Origin: Thermococcus sp. LS1
GTDB taxonomy: Archaea > Methanobacteriota_B > Thermococci > Thermococcales > Thermococcaceae
Assembly (NCBI RefSeq): GCF_012027395.1
Contig: NZ_SNUJ01000003.1
Span: forward strand, 124,001-188,000
Direction: 5' to 3'
Length of the DNA: 64,000 nt
Numbering within the stretch: position 1 is the first letter of the stretch; each line of letters opens with the position of its first letter. The translations under genes and the position numbers were made by a program. The notes under the pieces were generated by a model. That model saw only the letters and a list, made by a program, of their open reading frames with translations, had not been told where the DNA came from and did no database searches. This document shows positions 756 to 8,981 of the stretch, piece after piece.

Positions 756-1637
756 TTACCACCCCACCACTCCCAAAATCCAACTTAGGATTCCAACTAT
801 TGCAAAACGCTTGAGGAATCTGGCGGCGTCTTTAGTCCTGAATCTTCCATAGTGGGCTTCAATTGACGCGTAAACAACTGATATGATGACTAGTCCAATG
901 ACGTAGACTAGTACTCTCACTGTGCCATCTTGGGGCAGGAAGAAGTTCAGGAGTATCGTGGTGAGAAGTAGCCGTTTCACGTAGATTGAGAGCTTTAACA
1001 TTCCCAGGCCTTTCCCGCTGAACTCTATAAAGGGACCTTCGACTATCTCTGGTTCGGCTTCAGCGACGTCAAATGGGATTCTGGCTCCCGCGACGTATGC
1101 CATAACTGCGAATGCCAGAGCACCTGTTATGGTAGATACTTTTAGTTGGAGGGGGAAAAGTCGCGAGAACGAGAGACCCCCACTGGATGCTGCGAGTGCG
1201 GCCACTATAAAAGCCAAGGAGAATTCCTCTGCCATTATGATTGAAACTTCTCTGTGGGACCCTATTTGGGCATATGCACTTCCAGTTGAGAACGCTCCGA
1301 GGGCTATGGCGACGGCTGAGAGCGTTGAGAGGTATATGAAGGCGATTATATCCCCCCATGTGTCTAAAGAGCCAGGAAGTAGTGATGGGATGAACAAGGA
1401 CGCCGCCAATACAGATACAAGCGCTATTGCTGGTGCTGGTTCGAACAGCCACCTTACGGACTCCCTAGGCCTGACGTTTGGCCTTCTGAAGAGCTTTAAT
1501 AAATCAAGCCACGTCTGGATTAACGGCGGCCCTTGTCTTGACTGAAGTCTTGCTTTGACTTTCCTCTCGATTCCGTCTAATAACGGAGCAAAGAGTACTA
1601 TGAAGATTAGATTGAGGGCAGCATAAACTGCATTCAT
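756..1637 (-). CDS. NuoH-like membrane subunit of the CO-dependent hydrogenase
   Basis: Membrane subunit of the NADH dehydrogenase subunit 1 family (NuoH, MbhM, CooK). It anchors the hydrogenase module and takes part in ion translocation. Family signs are ERKVKARLQSRQGP near residue 25, GARIPFDVAEAEPEIVEGP near 200 and about eight hydrophobic segments. The ATG at 1637 overlaps the stop of the NuoL-like gene as ATGA, which argues for coupled translation. An upstream in-frame extension of 16 codons lies inside the neighbour and was rejected. The acidic EAEPEIVEG loop of the family is intact. Length 293 aa is usual. Confidence 0.92.
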   Translation of the reverse strand: MNAVYAALNLIFIVLFAPLLDGIERKVKARLQSRQGPPLIQTWLDLLKLFRRPNVRPRESVRWLFEPAPAIALVSVLAASLFIPSLLPGSLDTWGDIIAFIYLSTLSAVAIALGAFSTGSAYAQIGSHREVSIIMAEEFSLAFIVAALAASSGGLSFSRLFPLQLKVSTITGALAFAVMAYVAGARIPFDVAEAEPEIVEGPFIEFSGKGLGMLKLSIYVKRLLLTTILLNFFLPQDGTVRVLVYVIGLVIISVVYASIEAHYGRFRTKDAARFLKRFAIVGILSWILGVVGW

Positions 1638-3538
1638 AACAGAACACCCCCGAGTATTGTAAGGAGTATAAGGAGCATTAGCCAAGCTCCAGTCATCATC
1701 TTGTCCAAGTCGAAGGATGCTTCCTCAAAGCTGGACAAGACGGCTTTTGTGGCGTCCCATAGTCTTTTCGTGGTACATACACACCATTCTCCCCAGCTAT
1801 AAACATCCTCGAATTCTTCCTCAAAGGAGGCATAGTATGAGCTCGCTGGAAGCCTCATGGCCAGGGACTTTCTCGTGCCAGTTGTCCACACTGGAAGACT
1901 GATTTTGTATGGGAAAATGGCTAGTAACACTGCGGTCAGAGCTCCGGAGAATACCAGGAGAGCCAGAGGAGCTATGTTTCCAATACCGTCGGACACTATG
2001 AGACCGGGAAAGACCGTGATTGATGGAGTGGTCACGCCTACTGAGTCAACCGCTTTTGAGATTGCTTCCAGTGGCAATGCTGGATAAACACCAAAAATTA
2101 CACAAAGAACTGCAAGAATCAACTGGGACGCCCACATTGATACTGGGACTTCTTTGACCGTTATCTCCTTGGCAGGCGGTCTTACAAAGATGGAAGTGAA
2201 GTACTTAACGAAAGATGCGGTTGTTACAGCGCTTATGAATAGTGCTAGGGCCCCAAACAGGGAAACGAGAGTCGGAGTCGGAAGTGTTGAAACGTATATC
2301 ATCCACTTGCTAACAAAGCCGTTGAATGGTGGCATCCCAGCTATGGAAAGAGAACCTATCAGTGCGGCAAATGCCGTTATCGGCATAAATCTAGCTAGTC
2401 CTCCCAAGTGGTCCAAATCCCTGCTTCCAGTTCTATAAAGGATCGAGCCTGCTGTTAGGAAGAGCAGTCCCTTGAAGAATGCATGGTTGAGAGCGTGGAA
2501 TAGGGATGCCATAAGGGCAAGAGCTCCGAATGTGGTGTACCCCTTGGAGAGGAGATATATCCCTGCCCCAAGGGCAAAGACAACGTAACCTATCTGGCCG
2601 ACACTATGGTAGGACAGTAGGCGCTTTGAGTCTGTTTGCTTTAGTGCGTACATCGTGCCAAAAAACAGGGTTAATGTTCCGAACAGTGCTATGAGTAGAC
2701 CAATATTAGGGGTTAGTGGGGTGAAACTCAGGAAAAAGCGGAACATCATATACACTGGCATTTTTTCCATGGCCCCACTGAGCAATGACGAGACGTTACT
2801 TGGTGCCTCCACGTATGCGTCTGGAAGCCATACGTGGAACGGCACAAGGGCGGCCTTGACACCAAGTCCGATCATGAATCCAGCACTTACAAGATACATC
2901 TCCAGAGGATGAGAGCGGAAATAGTTTACGAGCTGGGACGAGAGGATATCGTAATCACCTCCGCCAGAGATTGTTATGAGTACTAATACTATGGCTATCA
3001 GCATAAAGTCTGCTGCGGCTTTAGTCATGCAGAAGTACTTGAGGGTCGCAATGAGAGTCTTCTCGTTCCTTTCAAACGCTACCAGGAACTGGGAGAAGAG
3101 AGTCATCAGTTCCCAAAACACAACAAACCACAGGAGATTCCATGAGACGAGAACAAGGAACATGAAGAGCAGGAAGAGGGGATAGTTGAAGGCATATAGT
3201 CTCTTGTCTCCTTTATACATGTCTAAGTATGCAATACCATAAACCGATGTACAGAAGCCCAGAATTCCGAGTATTATCATGAAAAAGCCTGACAGGGGGT
3301 CGACTTTGAGTGTTAGAGTTGAGAACGCATTGATAATGGAATCCGATTTCAGATGTAACAGAGTGATGTTTAATTCAACGCTCTCTTTGAGACCCATAAT
3401 CCCAGCATAGGCTATTGTCAATGAGCCGAGAGCGGAGAGGGCATTTACTAACTTCGTTAAAATTGCGCTCCTCGAAAAGACCCCAATGAAAGATGCAACT
3501 GACAGAATAATGACAATAAAAAGAAAAATTACCTCCAT
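1634..3538 (-). CDS. NuoL/MrpA-type proton antiporter-like subunit of the CO-dependent hydrogenase
   Basis: A 634-aa polytopic protein of the NuoL/M/N antiporter family (proton_antipo_M). It likely couples CO-driven H2 formation to ion pumping. It shows about 14 or more hydrophobic segments, the conserved FWELMTLFSQFLVAFERN region near 145, VKAALVPFHVWLPDAYVEAP near 230 with the family Lys and His, and SYHSVGQIGY near 310. The start ATG at 3538 has a strong GGGGGTGAT site. It sits between the CooT-like and NuoH-like genes, with 4 nt before and a 4-nt overlap after. The C-terminal ~130 residues are divergent, like HyfB/CooM-type subunits. Confidence 0.92.
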   Translation of the reverse strand: MEVIFLFIVIILSVASFIGVFSRSAILTKLVNALSALGSLTIAYAGIMGLKESVELNITLLHLKSDSIINAFSTLTLKVDPLSGFFMIILGILGFCTSVYGIAYLDMYKGDKRLYAFNYPLFLLFMFLVLVSWNLLWFVVFWELMTLFSQFLVAFERNEKTLIATLKYFCMTKAAADFMLIAIVLVLITISGGGDYDILSSQLVNYFRSHPLEMYLVSAGFMIGLGVKAALVPFHVWLPDAYVEAPSNVSSLLSGAMEKMPVYMMFRFFLSFTPLTPNIGLLIALFGTLTLFFGTMYALKQTDSKRLLSYHSVGQIGYVVFALGAGIYLLSKGYTTFGALALMASLFHALNHAFFKGLLFLTAGSILYRTGSRDLDHLGGLARFMPITAFAALIGSLSIAGMPPFNGFVSKWMIYVSTLPTPTLVSLFGALALFISAVTTASFVKYFTSIFVRPPAKEITVKEVPVSMWASQLILAVLCVIFGVYPALPLEAISKAVDSVGVTTPSITVFPGLIVSDGIGNIAPLALLVFSGALTAVLLAIFPYKISLPVWTTGTRKSLAMRLPASSYYASFEEEFEDVYSWGEWCVCTTKRLWDATKAVLSSFEEASFDLDKMMTGAWLMLLILLTILGGVLL

Positions 3539-3737: not shown

Positions 3738-4547
3738 TCATACCACCTTTGAGCGTTTTTTCATGCTCAGAAGTTTATTTGCAAGAGATTCAACATCACG
3801 GTAAATCCTAGAATCCATTGGTATGGAATCGACACCCAGACCTTCATTGTCAGCTTTAATTACGGACGTGTCAAAATGCACCAGGTGATAGGGAACTAGA
3901 TAGTCAGAGAAAACACGTGAGTAAAGCTTAGCGGCTTCCATGGAATCGTGTACTTTGTTAATTATGAGCATTAAGTTCGAAATGTTGAGTTCCTCACCCA
4001 TTTTGAGAAGTTTCTTGGCTATGGTGAGCGATTTAAGTGTTGGTTCCGCAACACAAAGCATAACATCGAATTTTTCCGCTAGACCTCTACCGAACACCTC
4101 TGCACCGGCTTCACTATCAACTATTACAATGTCCTTTTCTCTTAGAAGGACATGATTCAGGAATGCTTTGGCGAGTGCTATCGACGGGCACAGACAACCT
4201 TCCTTTGGCTGCTCTGTACTCCCGACCACGACGAGACTTAGATTTGGTTTTATCCTTATTCCGTACATGTCCACTAAGTCGTCAACTTTCGGTGTGAGGG
4301 AGAACAGTACCCCCCAACCGGAACCAGGTTTTGCTCCCGTTCTCTCTTGGGCAAGCTCCTCGTTCCGCGAGAGTGGAACGATATCTAATGCCTCATCATA
4401 TGGGACACCAAGGCTTTGAGCAAGGTTTGGAACGGAGTCTGTATCAAGGGTCAGTACATTGTAGCCTTTGTCGGCGATTATATGGGCGAGTAATGCTGTT
4501 GTTGTTGTCTTGCCAACCCCTCCTTTTCCAGCTACTAGTATTTTCAT
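3738..4547 (-). CDS. cooC: CODH nickel-insertion ATPase CooC
   Basis: A MinD/ArsA-type P-loop ATPase that helps insert nickel into the C-cluster of CooS. The N-terminus MKILVAGKGGVGKTTTTALL holds the deviant Walker A with its signature Lys. The switch-like LTLDTDSVPNLAQSLG follows near 40, and CLCPS near 120 supplies the CxC pair through which CooC dimers bind Ni/Zn. IVDSEAGAEVFGR near 145 is the Walker B region. The ATG at 4547 is chosen because GGAGGTG lies 5 nt before it. The longer in-frame reading has no site and runs into cooS. Length 269 aa is typical. Confidence 0.93.
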   Translation of the reverse strand: MKILVAGKGGVGKTTTTALLAHIIADKGYNVLTLDTDSVPNLAQSLGVPYDEALDIVPLSRNEELAQERTGAKPGSGWGVLFSLTPKVDDLVDMYGIRIKPNLSLVVVGSTEQPKEGCLCPSIALAKAFLNHVLLREKDIVIVDSEAGAEVFGRGLAEKFDVMLCVAEPTLKSLTIAKKLLKMGEELNISNLMLIINKVHDSMEAAKLYSRVFSDYLVPYHLVHFDTSVIKADNEGLGVDSIPMDSRIYRDVESLANKLLSMKKRSKVV

Positions 4548-4614
4548 TGTTGGCACCTCCGGCAATGTTTGTACGTTTAATGTACAAAATTCAAAGTTAA
4601 AATAATAGAAACTA

Positions 4615-6507
4615 TCAGACGGGCCATCCAAGTTTCTTCCTCTTCTCAATTATCACGTTGTATATTGTTTCTGCTGCTTTCACTGGATCTGTCTCAACGT
4701 AGAACTTTCCTCCAAGGAGATCCTCGATGTCATCTGTGAGGAGTTTGGTAACCTTCTGGCTTCCAAGGACTGGTGGGATAACTCCCAAGTGTGTGAAGAC
4801 GCCGCTTGCAACGAAGTAGGTTCCTATTGCCACTGCCTTCTCACTCATCCATTCTGGAGCAGAGCCAGCAACTGGCAAGTCTGAAATGTCAACATTCAGA
4901 GCATTGGCGAGGGCACTCAAGACCAGCAGGATTCTTGAACAGTCAACACAGCTTCCCATGTGCAGGCATGGTGGAATTCCAAGCGCTTCGCATACTGCCT
5001 TCAGCCCTGGACCGGCCATTTCAGCTGCTTCGGGGGTCAGTAATCCATGCATTGCTGCAGCAATTCCCCAGCAACCAGTTCCAACAACCAGGATGTCCCT
5101 CTTGATGAGCTCCTTGGCCAAGGTGACGTGACCGTAGTTCTGCTTGACCCTTGGATTGTTACATCCAACGATTCCGACGATTCCCTTTATTGTTCCGTCC
5201 TTGAGGGCTTTTATGAGGGGCTCCAATGTTCCACCAAGGGCTTCAAGTATTGCCTCAACGCTAAATCCAGCAACCAATTCCATCTTGTGCTCTGGAATGT
5301 AGACCTTTGCCGGAACTCTGTTCTTATAGTTCTCAATTGCAATCTTGATGATCTCTTTGGCGATCTCGTCCGCTTTCTCCGGGTCAAATTCGACGTGTAT
5401 TGCTCCCGGAATGCGAGCCTTTGGCTCAGTAGTTATTATCTTAGTGTGGTAACACGAAGCGACATCAACTAATGAGGGCATTAGGCACTGGTAGTCGACT
5501 ATCACGGCCTCAACTGCACCAGTTATAATCGCCAGCTCTTGCATCAGGAAGTTTCCAGCGACCTGGACTCCCATTCTTGAGAGAACTTCGTTTCCGGTAC
5601 AGCACATTCCAGCAACGTTAATTCCCTTTGCTCCGTACTGCTCTGCCAGCTTCTGCATCTCTTCACTCTGGGCAACCTCTGCTATTTTCATAGAGAGAAT
5701 CGGGTTGTGGCCGTGAACAATTATGTTAACCATGTCTTCCTTCAAGACTCCCAGGTTCGCCAGCGACTTTATCGGCTTCGGTGTTCCGAAGAGAATGTCG
5801 CTCAGATAGGTGGCCATCATTGAGCCGCACCAGCCATCTGCCAAGGCAGTCCTCACACCATGCAGTAGAAGGCTTGCAGGGTCTGCATCACAGCCTATGT
5901 GGGTTCTGTGCATGCTCAAACAGATTTCTCTATCGATTGCTCTTGGTAAGACTCCTAGCTTCTCCCAGATCTTAATCCTCTTCTTTGGTGCTGTTGCTGC
6001 AAGTAATCTTACTGGCTCCTCATCTTGTTTTCCGAACTCCATCTCAAGAATGTGGGCGACTTCCAATGCAATTTCATTTTCACTCTTGCCCTCTGTTTCG
6101 ACACCCAGAATCTTAGCCAGCTCTTTGAGCTTTTCAACATCTGTTAGTTTGTAATCCCTGAACTTCCCCTCGGCAACACCCTTGAACACATGAACCACAT
6201 CTCTTGAATGATCACTGTGACCAGCAGCACCAGCGGCTATCATTCTTACAATGTTCCTTGCCACTATTGTGTCTGCATCTGCACCACAAACTCCCTTAGT
6301 TGGGCCAACTCCAAACGGATCGATTCTACATGGCCCCATTGTACAGTTCTTACAGCAGACACCTAGGAGACCAAACCCACACTGAGGCTGCTGCTCCAAA
6401 AATCTGTGCCAGGCAGTCTTGACTCTATCGTCCTCGGCTTTCTCAATAAGCTTTCCAACACCCGGAGTTATGGAGACTTGCTTTGAGGGAACCTTCTTTC
6501 CGGCCAT
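4615..6507 (-). CDS. cooS: Anaerobic carbon monoxide dehydrogenase, catalytic subunit
   Basis: Ni-Fe-S enzyme that oxidises CO with water to CO2, giving two electrons to CooF. The 630-aa product has the N-terminal cluster cysteines CGFGLLGVCCKNCTMGPC near 41-58. C-cluster ligands are His in HGHNP, Cys in MCCTGNEVL, DYQCLMP, GIVGCNN, VGTGCWG and HMGSCVDCSRI. All expected ligand positions appear filled, so an active enzyme is predicted. The ATG at 6507 follows GAGGTGG by a few bases. An in-frame 21-codon extension overlaps cooF and lacks a site. Order cooF-cooS-cooC matches hydrogenogenic CO clusters of Thermococcus. Confidence 0.97.
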   Translation of the reverse strand: MAGKKVPSKQVSITPGVGKLIEKAEDDRVKTAWHRFLEQQPQCGFGLLGVCCKNCTMGPCRIDPFGVGPTKGVCGADADTIVARNIVRMIAAGAAGHSDHSRDVVHVFKGVAEGKFRDYKLTDVEKLKELAKILGVETEGKSENEIALEVAHILEMEFGKQDEEPVRLLAATAPKKRIKIWEKLGVLPRAIDREICLSMHRTHIGCDADPASLLLHGVRTALADGWCGSMMATYLSDILFGTPKPIKSLANLGVLKEDMVNIIVHGHNPILSMKIAEVAQSEEMQKLAEQYGAKGINVAGMCCTGNEVLSRMGVQVAGNFLMQELAIITGAVEAVIVDYQCLMPSLVDVASCYHTKIITTEPKARIPGAIHVEFDPEKADEIAKEIIKIAIENYKNRVPAKVYIPEHKMELVAGFSVEAILEALGGTLEPLIKALKDGTIKGIVGIVGCNNPRVKQNYGHVTLAKELIKRDILVVGTGCWGIAAAMHGLLTPEAAEMAGPGLKAVCEALGIPPCLHMGSCVDCSRILLVLSALANALNVDISDLPVAGSAPEWMSEKAVAIGTYFVASGVFTHLGVIPPVLGSQKVTKLLTDDIEDLLGGKFYVETDPVKAAETIYNVIIEKRKKLGWPV

Positions 6508-6517
6508 TTTCACCACC

Positions 6518-7156
6518 TCAATACCACACCACATTTGAATAGGCAAGATACAGATCCATAGGTCTAACAAGATCCTCTTTCTTCTTTGACTCGGAGACGG
6601 GCTTCATGTAGACCATTCCCTGCGATTTCAGCCCAGATATGAGACTCTCTGCCTTCTCCTTTCTAACCTCTTCCAGTATTTCGCCGAGAGTCCCGAACTT
6701 CAGGGCTCTAGTTGGACAGGCCTCAACACATGCTGGCTCTTTGCCTTCTCTGACCCTATCCACACAACTGTCGCACTTTATCACAGCCTTGTATTCGGGC
6801 TCGAACTTGGGATGGCCAAATGGACAGGCCATCACACACATGAGACAGCCTATGCACTTGTTGGCGTTAAGGACAACAAAGCCTTCTTTGGTTCTGGAGA
6901 TAGCTCCTGTCGGGCAGGCCTCCATACAGGGAGCGTCCTCACAGTGCTGGCATCTCATTGGAACATTAAAGAAGTCGGCGACAACAACTTGGAGTCGGGG
7001 TTTTGGGGTTGGTTTTTCAAAAATTGCACCGAAGAGGTTTTTGCTCATTGAATGTTCAACTGCACAGGCAATTTCGCAGGCCCTGCACCCCGTGCATTTC
7101 TCTGGATTTATGTAAATTGTAAGCTTCTCCATGTTGGAACCGGAAAAAGTTGGCAT
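6518..7156 (-). CDS. cooF: CO dehydrogenase iron-sulfur electron carrier CooF
   Basis: A 212-aa polyferredoxin of the 4Fe-4S dicluster family (CooF/HycB) that passes electrons from CooS to the membrane hydrogenase. Four cysteine groups are visible: CTGCRACEIAC near 21, MRCQHCEDAPCMEACP near 68, NKCIGCLMCVMACP near 100 and IKCDSCVDRVREGKEPACVEACP near 127. This implies up to four [4Fe-4S] clusters. It is the first gene of the CO-oxidation operon. The ATG at 7156 follows GAGGTGAT with 6-nt spacing. A second ATG eight codons in is possible but has no site. The C-terminal ~50 residues after the last cluster are probably the docking region. Confidence 0.95.
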   Translation of the reverse strand: MPTFSGSNMEKLTIYINPEKCTGCRACEIACAVEHSMSKNLFGAIFEKPTPKPRLQVVVADFFNVPMRCQHCEDAPCMEACPTGAISRTKEGFVVLNANKCIGCLMCVMACPFGHPKFEPEYKAVIKCDSCVDRVREGKEPACVEACPTRALKFGTLGEILEEVRKEKAESLISGLKSQGMVYMKPVSESKKKEDLVRPMDLYLAYSNVVWY

Positions 7157-7260
7157 TGTTGATCACCTCGTATAATGTAAACAAAAAGATTTTAAGATGG
7201 AATCGTGTTCGGCGATCCGTATAAAAACGCAAGAAATTATTCGATTTACCGTATTAGGAC
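7157..7260 (-). promoter_or_regulatory. cooF operon promoter with a 15-bp direct repeat (candidate CorR site)
   Basis: The 97-nt gap between corR and cooF holds, on the minus strand, a TATA-like TTTTATAC at about 7219-7226 and the cooF ribosome binding site at about 7162-7169. Two copies of ATACGG-N5-CGAA lie in direct orientation at 7240-7254 and 7208-7222, 32 bp apart (about three helical turns). One copy touches the corR stop codon and the other overlaps the TATA-box edge. The layout suits a regulator-binding site. Assignment to CorR is inference. Confidence 0.5.
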
Positions 7261-8363
7261 CTTTCATTTAGAGACAGTAAAACTCTCTCTCGGATCCGTT
7301 GGTATTCTTTCAGGAGATCCAAGGCAACTCCAGTAAGTACAGTTATTCCTTTTTTTCGACCTCCCTTAACGGAGACAATCAATCTTCTCCCGAGTTTTTC
7401 CTCAATATCCCTGATCCTTTCCCAGTATGTTGATGGGGAAACCCCCATAATCTTACATGCCGCCCTAAATGATCTGGTCTGAGAAATAAGTTCAAGGAGT
7501 TCCATAATATCTCCAGGAATTTTTATGCCTGATGGCGTAACAAAGGATATTTCAACTTTTGGTACAAAATTCGGATTCTTATTGTCGGGACATGGGGAAA
7601 AGAATATCTTCCGAAGCACTTCTCTAGTCATCTCTCGGTAGCTTACTGAAAAATTTGAGTTTGGACACTTTGATATAATGCCATATGGATTAACATAAAG
7701 ATGCCTGCATGGATCCATAGGGGACATAAGCAGAGTAATGGGATAATCATTTAGGAACACTTTCATAGCAGAATAAAGATATTTCCTTCCATAATGCAGG
7801 CCAAGTTCGACATCTTTTCTAGCGCTTATTGATTCAATGAACATATCTCCGGATGGAGGGCTGAAAAGGGATGGTCCAACGGTTATTCTTAATCCTCGCT
7901 TCATGCATTCCCCGATTTTCCTAAGGATTTCCCCTGGATCCGAGCTCGAGTTAAACACCAAATAAGCCTCAATGTGATCAATACCTCTTGATTCAAGGGC
8001 TCTAATGAGAGTATCCCCTCTTTTAATATCTATCGTGGGAGGGACAATTATAGAAACCATGTCCATATCGGCAAGTACATCTACTCTGAGGTTGGAAAGA
8101 CTGGCAGTTAAGGGTATAAAAACGGTCACCCTTTTTGATATGTCTCTCAGCTCATCGTAGATAATCCTTATTTTTGGATGAAGAAATGGGTTAGGGCACA
8201 TCAATATTCCTTCATCGAATTTGAACCCATCTAAAAGAGAGGCTATTCTAGGGAGAACATCCCCAGGGAGCATTACTCCACTTAACCTCTCTCTCCAAAT
8301 GCAGTTTGCACAGGTTGCATCACACCTTCCTGATGATTGTACAACTATAACTCCCATAACCAT
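7254..8363 (-). CDS. corR: CorR-like CO-responsive regulator: radical-SAM/SPASM-like domain plus LysR/ModE-type HTH
   Basis: By position this is CorR, described in T. onnurineus as a regulator with a LysR-type DNA-binding domain needed for CO growth. The HTH is C-terminal (about 285-360): FRAACKIMGVSPSTYWERIRDIEEKLG, then GGRKKGITVLTGVA, as in ModE/LysR winged helices. The N-terminal ~270 residues look like a radical SAM core. CDATCANC near 14-21 fits CX3CX2C, and a SPASM-like tail near 225-275 has PCRHLYVNPYGIISKCP and FSPCP. This suggests an Fe-S cluster in the regulator. The start is ambiguous among GTG 8366, ATG 8363 and ATG 8357. All overlap or abut the corQ stop. Confidence 0.85.
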   Translation of the reverse strand: MVMGVIVVQSSGRCDATCANCIWRERLSGVMLPGDVLPRIASLLDGFKFDEGILMCPNPFLHPKIRIIYDELRDISKRVTVFIPLTASLSNLRVDVLADMDMVSIIVPPTIDIKRGDTLIRALESRGIDHIEAYLVFNSSSDPGEILRKIGECMKRGLRITVGPSLFSPPSGDMFIESISARKDVELGLHYGRKYLYSAMKVFLNDYPITLLMSPMDPCRHLYVNPYGIISKCPNSNFSVSYREMTREVLRKIFFSPCPDNKNPNFVPKVEISFVTPSGIKIPGDIMELLELISQTRSFRAACKIMGVSPSTYWERIRDIEEKLGRRLIVSVKGGRKKGITVLTGVALDLLKEYQRIRERVLLSLNERS

Positions 8364-8917
8364 CACTCAAATACTACCTCAAAGCCACAGAAAGAGTAGC
8401 CAAGTCCCTGACAGTATATCTCTCTTGTAATGTTTCTGCCTACTAGCTCTTCTATGATACCTTGGATCAGGCCTGCTTCAAAATCGCATAAAGTTCTCCC
8501 TATAGGGACAGCATGGTAACAACTCATACACTCATAGATATTTAGCTTTATCCTATTAAAAGACTCTTCCAAGATATCAAGAAGCCCTATCTTCTGATTT
8601 AAGAACACTTTAGGTAGGTCATCTAGACTTTTGACTTCCCCACTTTCTACAAGTCTTTTAGCGAGCTTTAATCCCGCACCCCTCAAAATGAGACTTCTTA
8701 GAGATGGACTATATTCCATCATACCATAAGAAATCATCCTGAAAGTTCTTACGTATTCTGGATCCTCTGGAAAAAGCTTTGCAAAAAAAGGTCTTCTAAC
8801 TTGGAAGTAATTCTGTGGCGTCAGCTCATTTCTCTGAAGTTGAGAGGGCTTTTCTTTAACCTCAGACCTGTAAATATTTCGCCATTGTTTGATTAGATCG
8901 ATGTACTCAATTTCCAT
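8363..8917 (-). CDS. corQ: CorQ-like V4R-domain CO sensor
   Basis: A 184-aa protein with the C-terminal 4-vinyl-reductase (V4R) fold. In T. onnurineus the V4R protein CorQ pairs with CorR to switch on CODH genes. The V4R cysteine pattern is visible near 130-180: ECMSCYHAVPIG, TLCDFEAGLIQG, EIYCQGLGYSFCGFEV. These residues probably bind a metal or Fe-S/heme-like ligand. It overlaps corR at the stop, so the two are made together. The ATG at 8917 follows AGGTGT by 5-6 nt and is preferred to an in-frame GTG at 8926, which has no site. Confidence 0.85.
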   Translation of the reverse strand: MEIEYIDLIKQWRNIYRSEVKEKPSQLQRNELTPQNYFQVRRPFFAKLFPEDPEYVRTFRMISYGMMEYSPSLRSLILRGAGLKLAKRLVESGEVKSLDDLPKVFLNQKIGLLDILEESFNRIKLNIYECMSCYHAVPIGRTLCDFEAGLIQGIIEELVGRNITREIYCQGLGYSFCGFEVVFE

Positions 8918-8981
8918 CTCTAACACCTATGAAAGAGTATGCATACATCAATTTAAAAGTTTTGAAAACCAAAATATAAAT
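8918..8981. promoter_or_regulatory. Shared divergent promoter of corQ and sfsA
   Basis: The 64-bp gap has one good TATA candidate, the palindromic TTTAAA at 8952-8957. To the right it lies about 27 bp before the sfsA ATG, which would make that mRNA leaderless; no ribosome binding site is present there. To the left it would start the corQ mRNA near 8930, just ahead of AGGTGT. A symmetric box could serve both strands. Confidence 0.45.

Follow-up and report, generated by a model that had tools for sequence, protein, structure and literature searches.

A radical-SAM-like N-terminal half with conserved cysteines in the CO regulator CorR of Thermococcus

Introduction

The genes corQ and corR, which stand beside the CODH cluster of Thermococcus, raise the question of which of their two products senses CO, and by what means. 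The CO-responsive activators of CODH genes CooA and RcoM are heme-based (PMC6557876). Activation of the CODH cluster by CorQR is reported, as is increased H2 production by a corR-deletion strain carrying up-regulated corQR (PMC4791640). Thermococcus CorQR has so far been thought to sense via the V4R domain, by a mechanism left unspecified, and a Pfam search found neither a CRP-type nor a PAS domain in CorR, unlike CooA and RcoM. The domain descriptions of CorQ and CorR are swapped in PMC6557876, which does not fit the sequences. CorQR has also been termed a two-component system (PMC13077300), an assignment that is rejected here because a Pfam search found no kinase or receiver domain in either protein.

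Here we present an analysis of corR in a stretch of 64,000 nucleotides from Thermococcus sp. LS1 (the window). A sequence-only reading of this DNA had proposed that the N-terminal half of CorR is radical-SAM/SPASM-like, so that an Fe-S cluster in the regulator itself could sense CO or redox state, or an enzyme core may have been recruited for sensing.

Gene features and locus organization

According to the ORF list, corR lies on the minus strand and starts with GTG (7254-8366, 370 aa) or with the next ATG (7254-8363); residue numbers given here count the GTG as residue 1, whereas those of the sequence-only reading counted from the ATG. The gene encodes a predicted pseudo-radical-SAM/twitch domain followed by a C-terminal winged HTH of the LysR/ModE type. 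It overlaps by 4 bp with corQ (8363-8926, 187 aa), the gene of the V4R-domain partner (PF02830, 1.8e-11). On the other side follow the genes for a cooF-like ferredoxin with several 4Fe-4S motifs (6518-7156, Fer4 Pfam matches), for CooS, the Ni-CO dehydrogenase catalytic subunit (4615-6570), and for a cooC-like accessory ATPase (3738-4649), and then the hydrogenase/antiporter genes of the CODH cluster (756-3538, continuing to position 1). All of these genes are on the minus strand, and cooF and cooS are syntenic in all loci, with a cooS identity of 76-98% in CorR-bearing Thermococcaceae. The order in the window is thus corQ-corR-cooF-cooS-cooC-hydrogenase, and V4R-corR-cooF-cooS-cooC is kept in 9/9 Thermococcaceae regions compared.

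The window protein belongs to the same family as CorR of Thermococcus onnurineus NA1. Its ortholog in genome G026, which we take to be strain NA1 and whose CorR would then be the studied one, is 97% identical, with identical gene order. Selenocysteine, considered for some CorR homologs, was rejected since the in-frame TGA flags represent the stop codon beside the corR start.

Distribution and linkage to CODH

CorR is present in 16 of 94 Thermococcaceae genomes, in one of them split over two contigs. Hydrogenase-linked cooS (76-100% identical) was found in 15 of these 16; G063, the remaining one, has corQ-corR-cooF on a contig of 5.2 kb that breaks off before cooS is reached. Where the other CODH, about 60% identical, is the sole one in a Thermococcaceae genome, CorR is absent. 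A second archaeal phylum, probably the Korarchaeota, has divergent CorR homologs in its CODH clusters; their N-terminal half is 21-28% identical and the HTH is the same. One of the genomes concerned, G150, is presumably that of Korarchaeum cryptofilum. The genes of this second phylum adjoin a V4R gene and cooF/cooS/cooC, and wherever a genuine CorR was matched there the genome also has a CODH. Plasmids yielded no relative.

In genome G407 a CorR-like gene (L155, 7210-8247; also L192, contig C70) marks the far end of a CODH-Mrp-hydrogenase cluster and is read from the opposite strand. No V4R gene was found near it, the only V4R match of this genome being a 265-aa ORF on another contig. This suggests that no neighbouring CorQ is needed for CorR to function, but the point is weak, the assembly consisting of 180 contigs and having 6% contamination. 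Near the CorR-like gene of G407 there is also a gene for an aldehyde ferredoxin oxidoreductase.

Three further loci deserve mention. In one assembly a corR of the Korarchaeal type is interrupted through an in-frame stop or a shift, which may be real or a sequencing error (L141; G280 contig C11, 136173-136978). Locus L023 (JAADCS010000069.1), labelled Thermotogota, has a Thermococcus-like CorR and is probably a misbinned contig. The cooS gene of G087 (L066, 6975-8885) is 95-96% identical to that of the window despite the different genera, against 83-86% for relatives in the genus of G087, and corR (49%) and cooF (78%) beside it show no comparable closeness; by sequence comparison this looks like recombination of cooS alone.

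Domain architecture of CorR

The HTH had been placed at the C-terminus of CorR, and this is borne out. Residues 288-334 of 370 (7365-7505, minus strand) match Pfam HTH_1 (PF00126, 5.5e-8), the ModE model TIGR00637 (1.7e-10, with a score under the cut-off of that model) and the ModE structure PDB 2ijl (7.2e-6), which assigns them to a winged HTH of the LysR/ModE type. With ModE, CorR has the winged HTH in common but not the molybdate-binding domain. Publications describe CorR by a LysR-type HTH only, with a V4R partner (PMC6557876), and the LysR-like HTH itself would fit an ordinary LysR-type regulator whose N-terminal half is an unrelated ligand-binding domain with coincidental cysteine motifs. 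LysR-type regulators, however, combine an N-terminal HTH with a substrate-binding domain, whereas the HTH of CorR is C-terminal and a Pfam search found no LysR substrate-binding domain in the protein. As the fold and profile matches of the N-terminal half are radical-SAM enzymes and its cysteines are invariant across phyla (see below), an ordinary LysR-type regulator is highly improbable.

The N-domain was modelled with AlphaFold from an alignment of 20 CorR N-domains of both phyla, without templates (pLDDT 82.2, pTM 0.83; the Cys-loop segment 16-28 is of low confidence). This model replaced a first full-length model, based on Thermococcaceae sequences only and poor in the Cys region, with which MoaA and SuiB were already top-ranked. 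DSSP gave the element order b1-a1 to b6-a6, after which come additional strands and one helix. Residues 5-182 (7821-8354, minus strand) are predicted by DSSP, Foldseek and hhalign to form a (beta/alpha)6 partial TIM barrel of the radical-SAM type, and residues 186-262 (7581-7811, minus strand) a twitch-like extension, with strands in 186-232 and a helix at 248-256 according to DSSP and in agreement with the full-length MoaA alignment.

At E<=0.001 Foldseek returned 13 PDB matches to the N-domain, all of them radical-SAM enzymes, with MoaA first (1.7e-8, TMq 0.67-0.70), then SuiB, AbmM, BlsE, PqqE and SpeY. Aligned with five archaeal MoaA in hhalign, CorR reached a probability of 98.6% (E 5.2e-16, 230 columns), against less than 1% for all six reversed or column-shuffled MoaA controls. 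When whole genomes were searched with a CorR-only profile, the matches next after CorR itself were likewise radical-SAM enzymes; almost all of these have GGEP, and their E values per genome lie between 1e-10 and 1e-7. A TIM-barrel match in structure prediction had been set beforehand as a test of the radical-SAM-like N-terminal half, and AlphaFold and Foldseek provided it: model and profile alignments, as two independent lines, both show residues 1-262 as a predicted radical-SAM partial TIM barrel with a MoaA-like 'twitch' extension.

Direct sequence searches gave a different picture. The first ~262 residues of the window CorR have no radical-SAM match in Pfam, NCBIfam or PDB sequence searches, so that this route alone would wrongly reject the finding. 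Weak matches were obtained with other members of the family: PF04055 (Radical_SAM) in 5/15 CorR orthologs (best E 6.3e-4) and the archaeal MoaA model TIGR02668 in 4/15 (best 3.7e-4). Three Korarchaeal-type homologs reach 14.5-19.4 bits with PF04055, under the gathering cut-off of 29.5 bits.

MoaA (GTP 3',8-cyclase), the best PDB and profile match, has the partial TIM barrel, the CX3CX2C after beta-1 and the C-X13-C register in common with CorR. CorR differs from it in the third auxiliary Cys, which is C-terminal (C259) and in Thermococcus not a CX2C partner, in the added C-terminal wHTH and in the extra invariant Cys57.

Conserved cysteines

The CX3CX2C motif claimed from the sequence is present as CDATCANC at residues 15-22 (8301-8324, minus strand). 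It follows the strand 5-10, is invariant in both phyla and is aligned with the CX3CX2C of radical-SAM enzymes; this is the putative cluster site 1. A putative auxiliary-cluster site is formed by CRHLYVNPYGIISKC (residues 220-234, 7665-7709, minus strand), whose C-X13-C is also invariant and shares its register with the last two Cys of the archaeal MoaA CX2CX13C, together with Cys259 of FSPC (7590-7592, minus strand), invariant in 20 homologs and L155. One extra Cys, four residues before C220, occurs in the Korarchaeal proteins except L155. The auxiliary motif, CX8GX4C plus C259, is one residue short of the SPASM spacing CX9-15GX4C, and Cys for a second cluster of that type are absent. The proposal of a SPASM-like region was right as to the Cys motif and FSPC. 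A full seven-Cys SPASM domain is rejected because there is one auxiliary Cys set only, in what looks like the short twitch form of MoaA.

Seven Cys (15, 19, 22, 57, 220, 234 and 259) are invariant across both phyla and conserved in all CorR homologs, including those of the second phylum with 21-28% identity; a lack of such conservation had been named beforehand as a refutation of the radical-SAM-like N-terminal half. The Cys are kept in 15/15 full-length Thermococcaceae sequences aligned, which are 48-97% identical to the window protein, and make up seven of the 15 invariant N-half columns of the two-phylum alignment, compared with a Cys background of 3.8%; the motifs are thus more than chance. 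Conservation of C154, which is the only N-half Cys of the window protein outside this set, and of C304 does not extend beyond Thermococcaceae. From this pattern we infer that the conserved Cys hold two Fe-S clusters; alternatively, they could bind zinc.

Apparent loss of the SAM site

Cys57, which the sequence-only reading had missed, occupies the radical-SAM GGE position. At the end of beta-2 GGEPTLHPKF is aligned with CPNPFLHPKI of CorR (CPNP, residues 57-60, 8187-8198, minus strand), and all homologs have the invariant Cys57 where GGE has its first Gly. The position reads CP[N/D]P in 20/20 sequences of the CorR alignment and CPWS in L155, whereas of 14 radical-SAM sequences in the joint alignment 13 have GG[ED]P. 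In this alignment TNG (beta-3) and SLD (beta-4) are absent from all CorR, which are also short by about 13 residues after beta-4 relative to radical-SAM enzymes. In SkfB it is GGE and a Ser/Arg pair past beta-4 that hold the amino, carboxyl and ribose groups of SAM (PMC6231123).

With the fold and the cluster Cys kept and the cofactor site lost, the domain may be called 'pseudo-radical-SAM'. The alignments indicate that the SAM site appears lost and that CorR would accordingly not bind SAM. Some genuine radical-SAM enzymes deviate from GGE, and motif loss is therefore not strict proof of SAM loss. The combination of lost SAM-binding motifs and kept cluster Cys strengthens the option of an enzyme core recruited for sensing. 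Cys57 may provide cluster 1 with a fourth ligand, to judge from its position in the model, where strand 52-56 ends.

CorR might instead be an active radical-SAM enzyme with a variant SAM site, modifying for example CorQ, RNA polymerase or a small-molecule signal. The intact CX3CX2C and twitch Cys and the MoaA-like fold would agree with catalysis, but GGEP, TNG and SLD are all lost, the first Gly of GGE has given way to Cys57 throughout the homologs, and the post-beta-4 segment that in SkfB makes the SAM carboxylate and ribose contacts (PMC6231123) is shortened. We regard an active enzyme as improbable.

CorQ and the cooF promoter

Sensing could also reside in CorQ, which would bind CO or a metabolite at its V4R site, while the Fe-S or Zn sites of CorR would be structural, its fold an interaction scaffold and CorR as a whole the transducer and DNA-binding arm. 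In CorQ the V4R residues C147, C172, C180 and E169 are invariant across both phyla, and corQ adjoins corR in both. DmpR has a V4R zinc set, Cys151/Glu172/Cys177/Cys185, beside its phenol pocket (PMC7264223), to which the Cys triad and Glu of CorQ are similar in kind. On these grounds CorQ may also bind metal and stays a rival sensor. Sensing by CorQ alone is opposed by the CorR-like protein of G407 at its CODH-hydrogenase cluster, near which no V4R gene was found, and a purely structural role of CorR poorly explains a seventh invariant Cys exactly at the SAM position. Sensing confined to CorQ is the main rival reading and is held to be rather unlikely, if considerably less so than an active enzyme.

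Upstream of cooF a candidate operator, CCGAACACG (7204-7212, minus strand), is invariant in the loci compared. It occurs once and in the same place upstream of cooF in 10/10 loci (0.28 expected per 64 kb), always 5' of a TATA-like stretch. An exact inverted CGTGTTC at a fixed distance (40 nt between the arms) is found in five of the 10 loci and, with one mismatch, in one more; the window has no second inverted arm near CCGAACACG. The element may be the site of CorR or of TON_1525, a reported repressor (PMC4791640). A TCGGAA core upstream of cooF is common to the Korarchaeal loci L139, L140, L142 and L156 and loosely resembles the CCGAACA site of Thermococcus.

Proposed mechanism and implications

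The reading that we favour, and hold to be fairly probable, is that the radical-SAM fold of CorR is non-catalytic, has two Fe-S sites and senses CO or redox state in cooperation with CorQ. Site 1 would be the C15/C19/C22 cluster, with C57 filling the side of SAM binding, and site 2 a MoaA-like auxiliary cluster at C220/C234/C259. The state of a cluster would change when CO binds to it or when CO oxidation creates a low redox potential, and this change would re-orient the winged HTH of the C-terminus at the cooF promoter, for which CCGAACACG is the candidate site. CorR, with CorQ (V4R) as its co-encoded partner, would thereby activate transcription of the CODH-hydrogenase operon. Both sensing by CorR itself, of CO or redox state, and CCGAACACG as the CorR operator are inferred from these comparisons. 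For CO as the direct ligand the probability is about half of that for the Fe-S sensor reading as a whole.

FNR, IscR and NsrR are Fe-S transcription regulators in which the cluster state controls DNA binding. CorR would work like them, with an unrelated fold; to our knowledge, none of these Fe-S regulators uses a radical-SAM barrel. That CorR regulates the response to CO is already known. Among the openly accessible papers found by a literature search, none reports a radical-SAM or Fe-S domain in CorR, a CO-sensing regulator based on Fe-S or a transcription factor derived from radical-SAM enzymes. More tentatively, CorR might be the first Fe-S CO-sensing transcription factor and the first known 'pseudo-radical-SAM' sensor, a MoaA-like core whose SAM site gave way to an invariant Cys, with CO instead of SAM or substrate reporting at a site-differentiated cluster iron.

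As current family models miss the N-terminal half of CorR, genomes may contain further regulators of this kind that have gone unnoticed. CorR, with its seven predicted cluster ligands, gives Thermococcus CorQR a second candidate sensor, and heme-free CO sensing in archaea becomes testable by point mutation; corR deletion and complementation already exist in the studied organism. If the proposal is true, CorR would represent a rare reuse of the radical-SAM fold as a non-enzymatic sensor.
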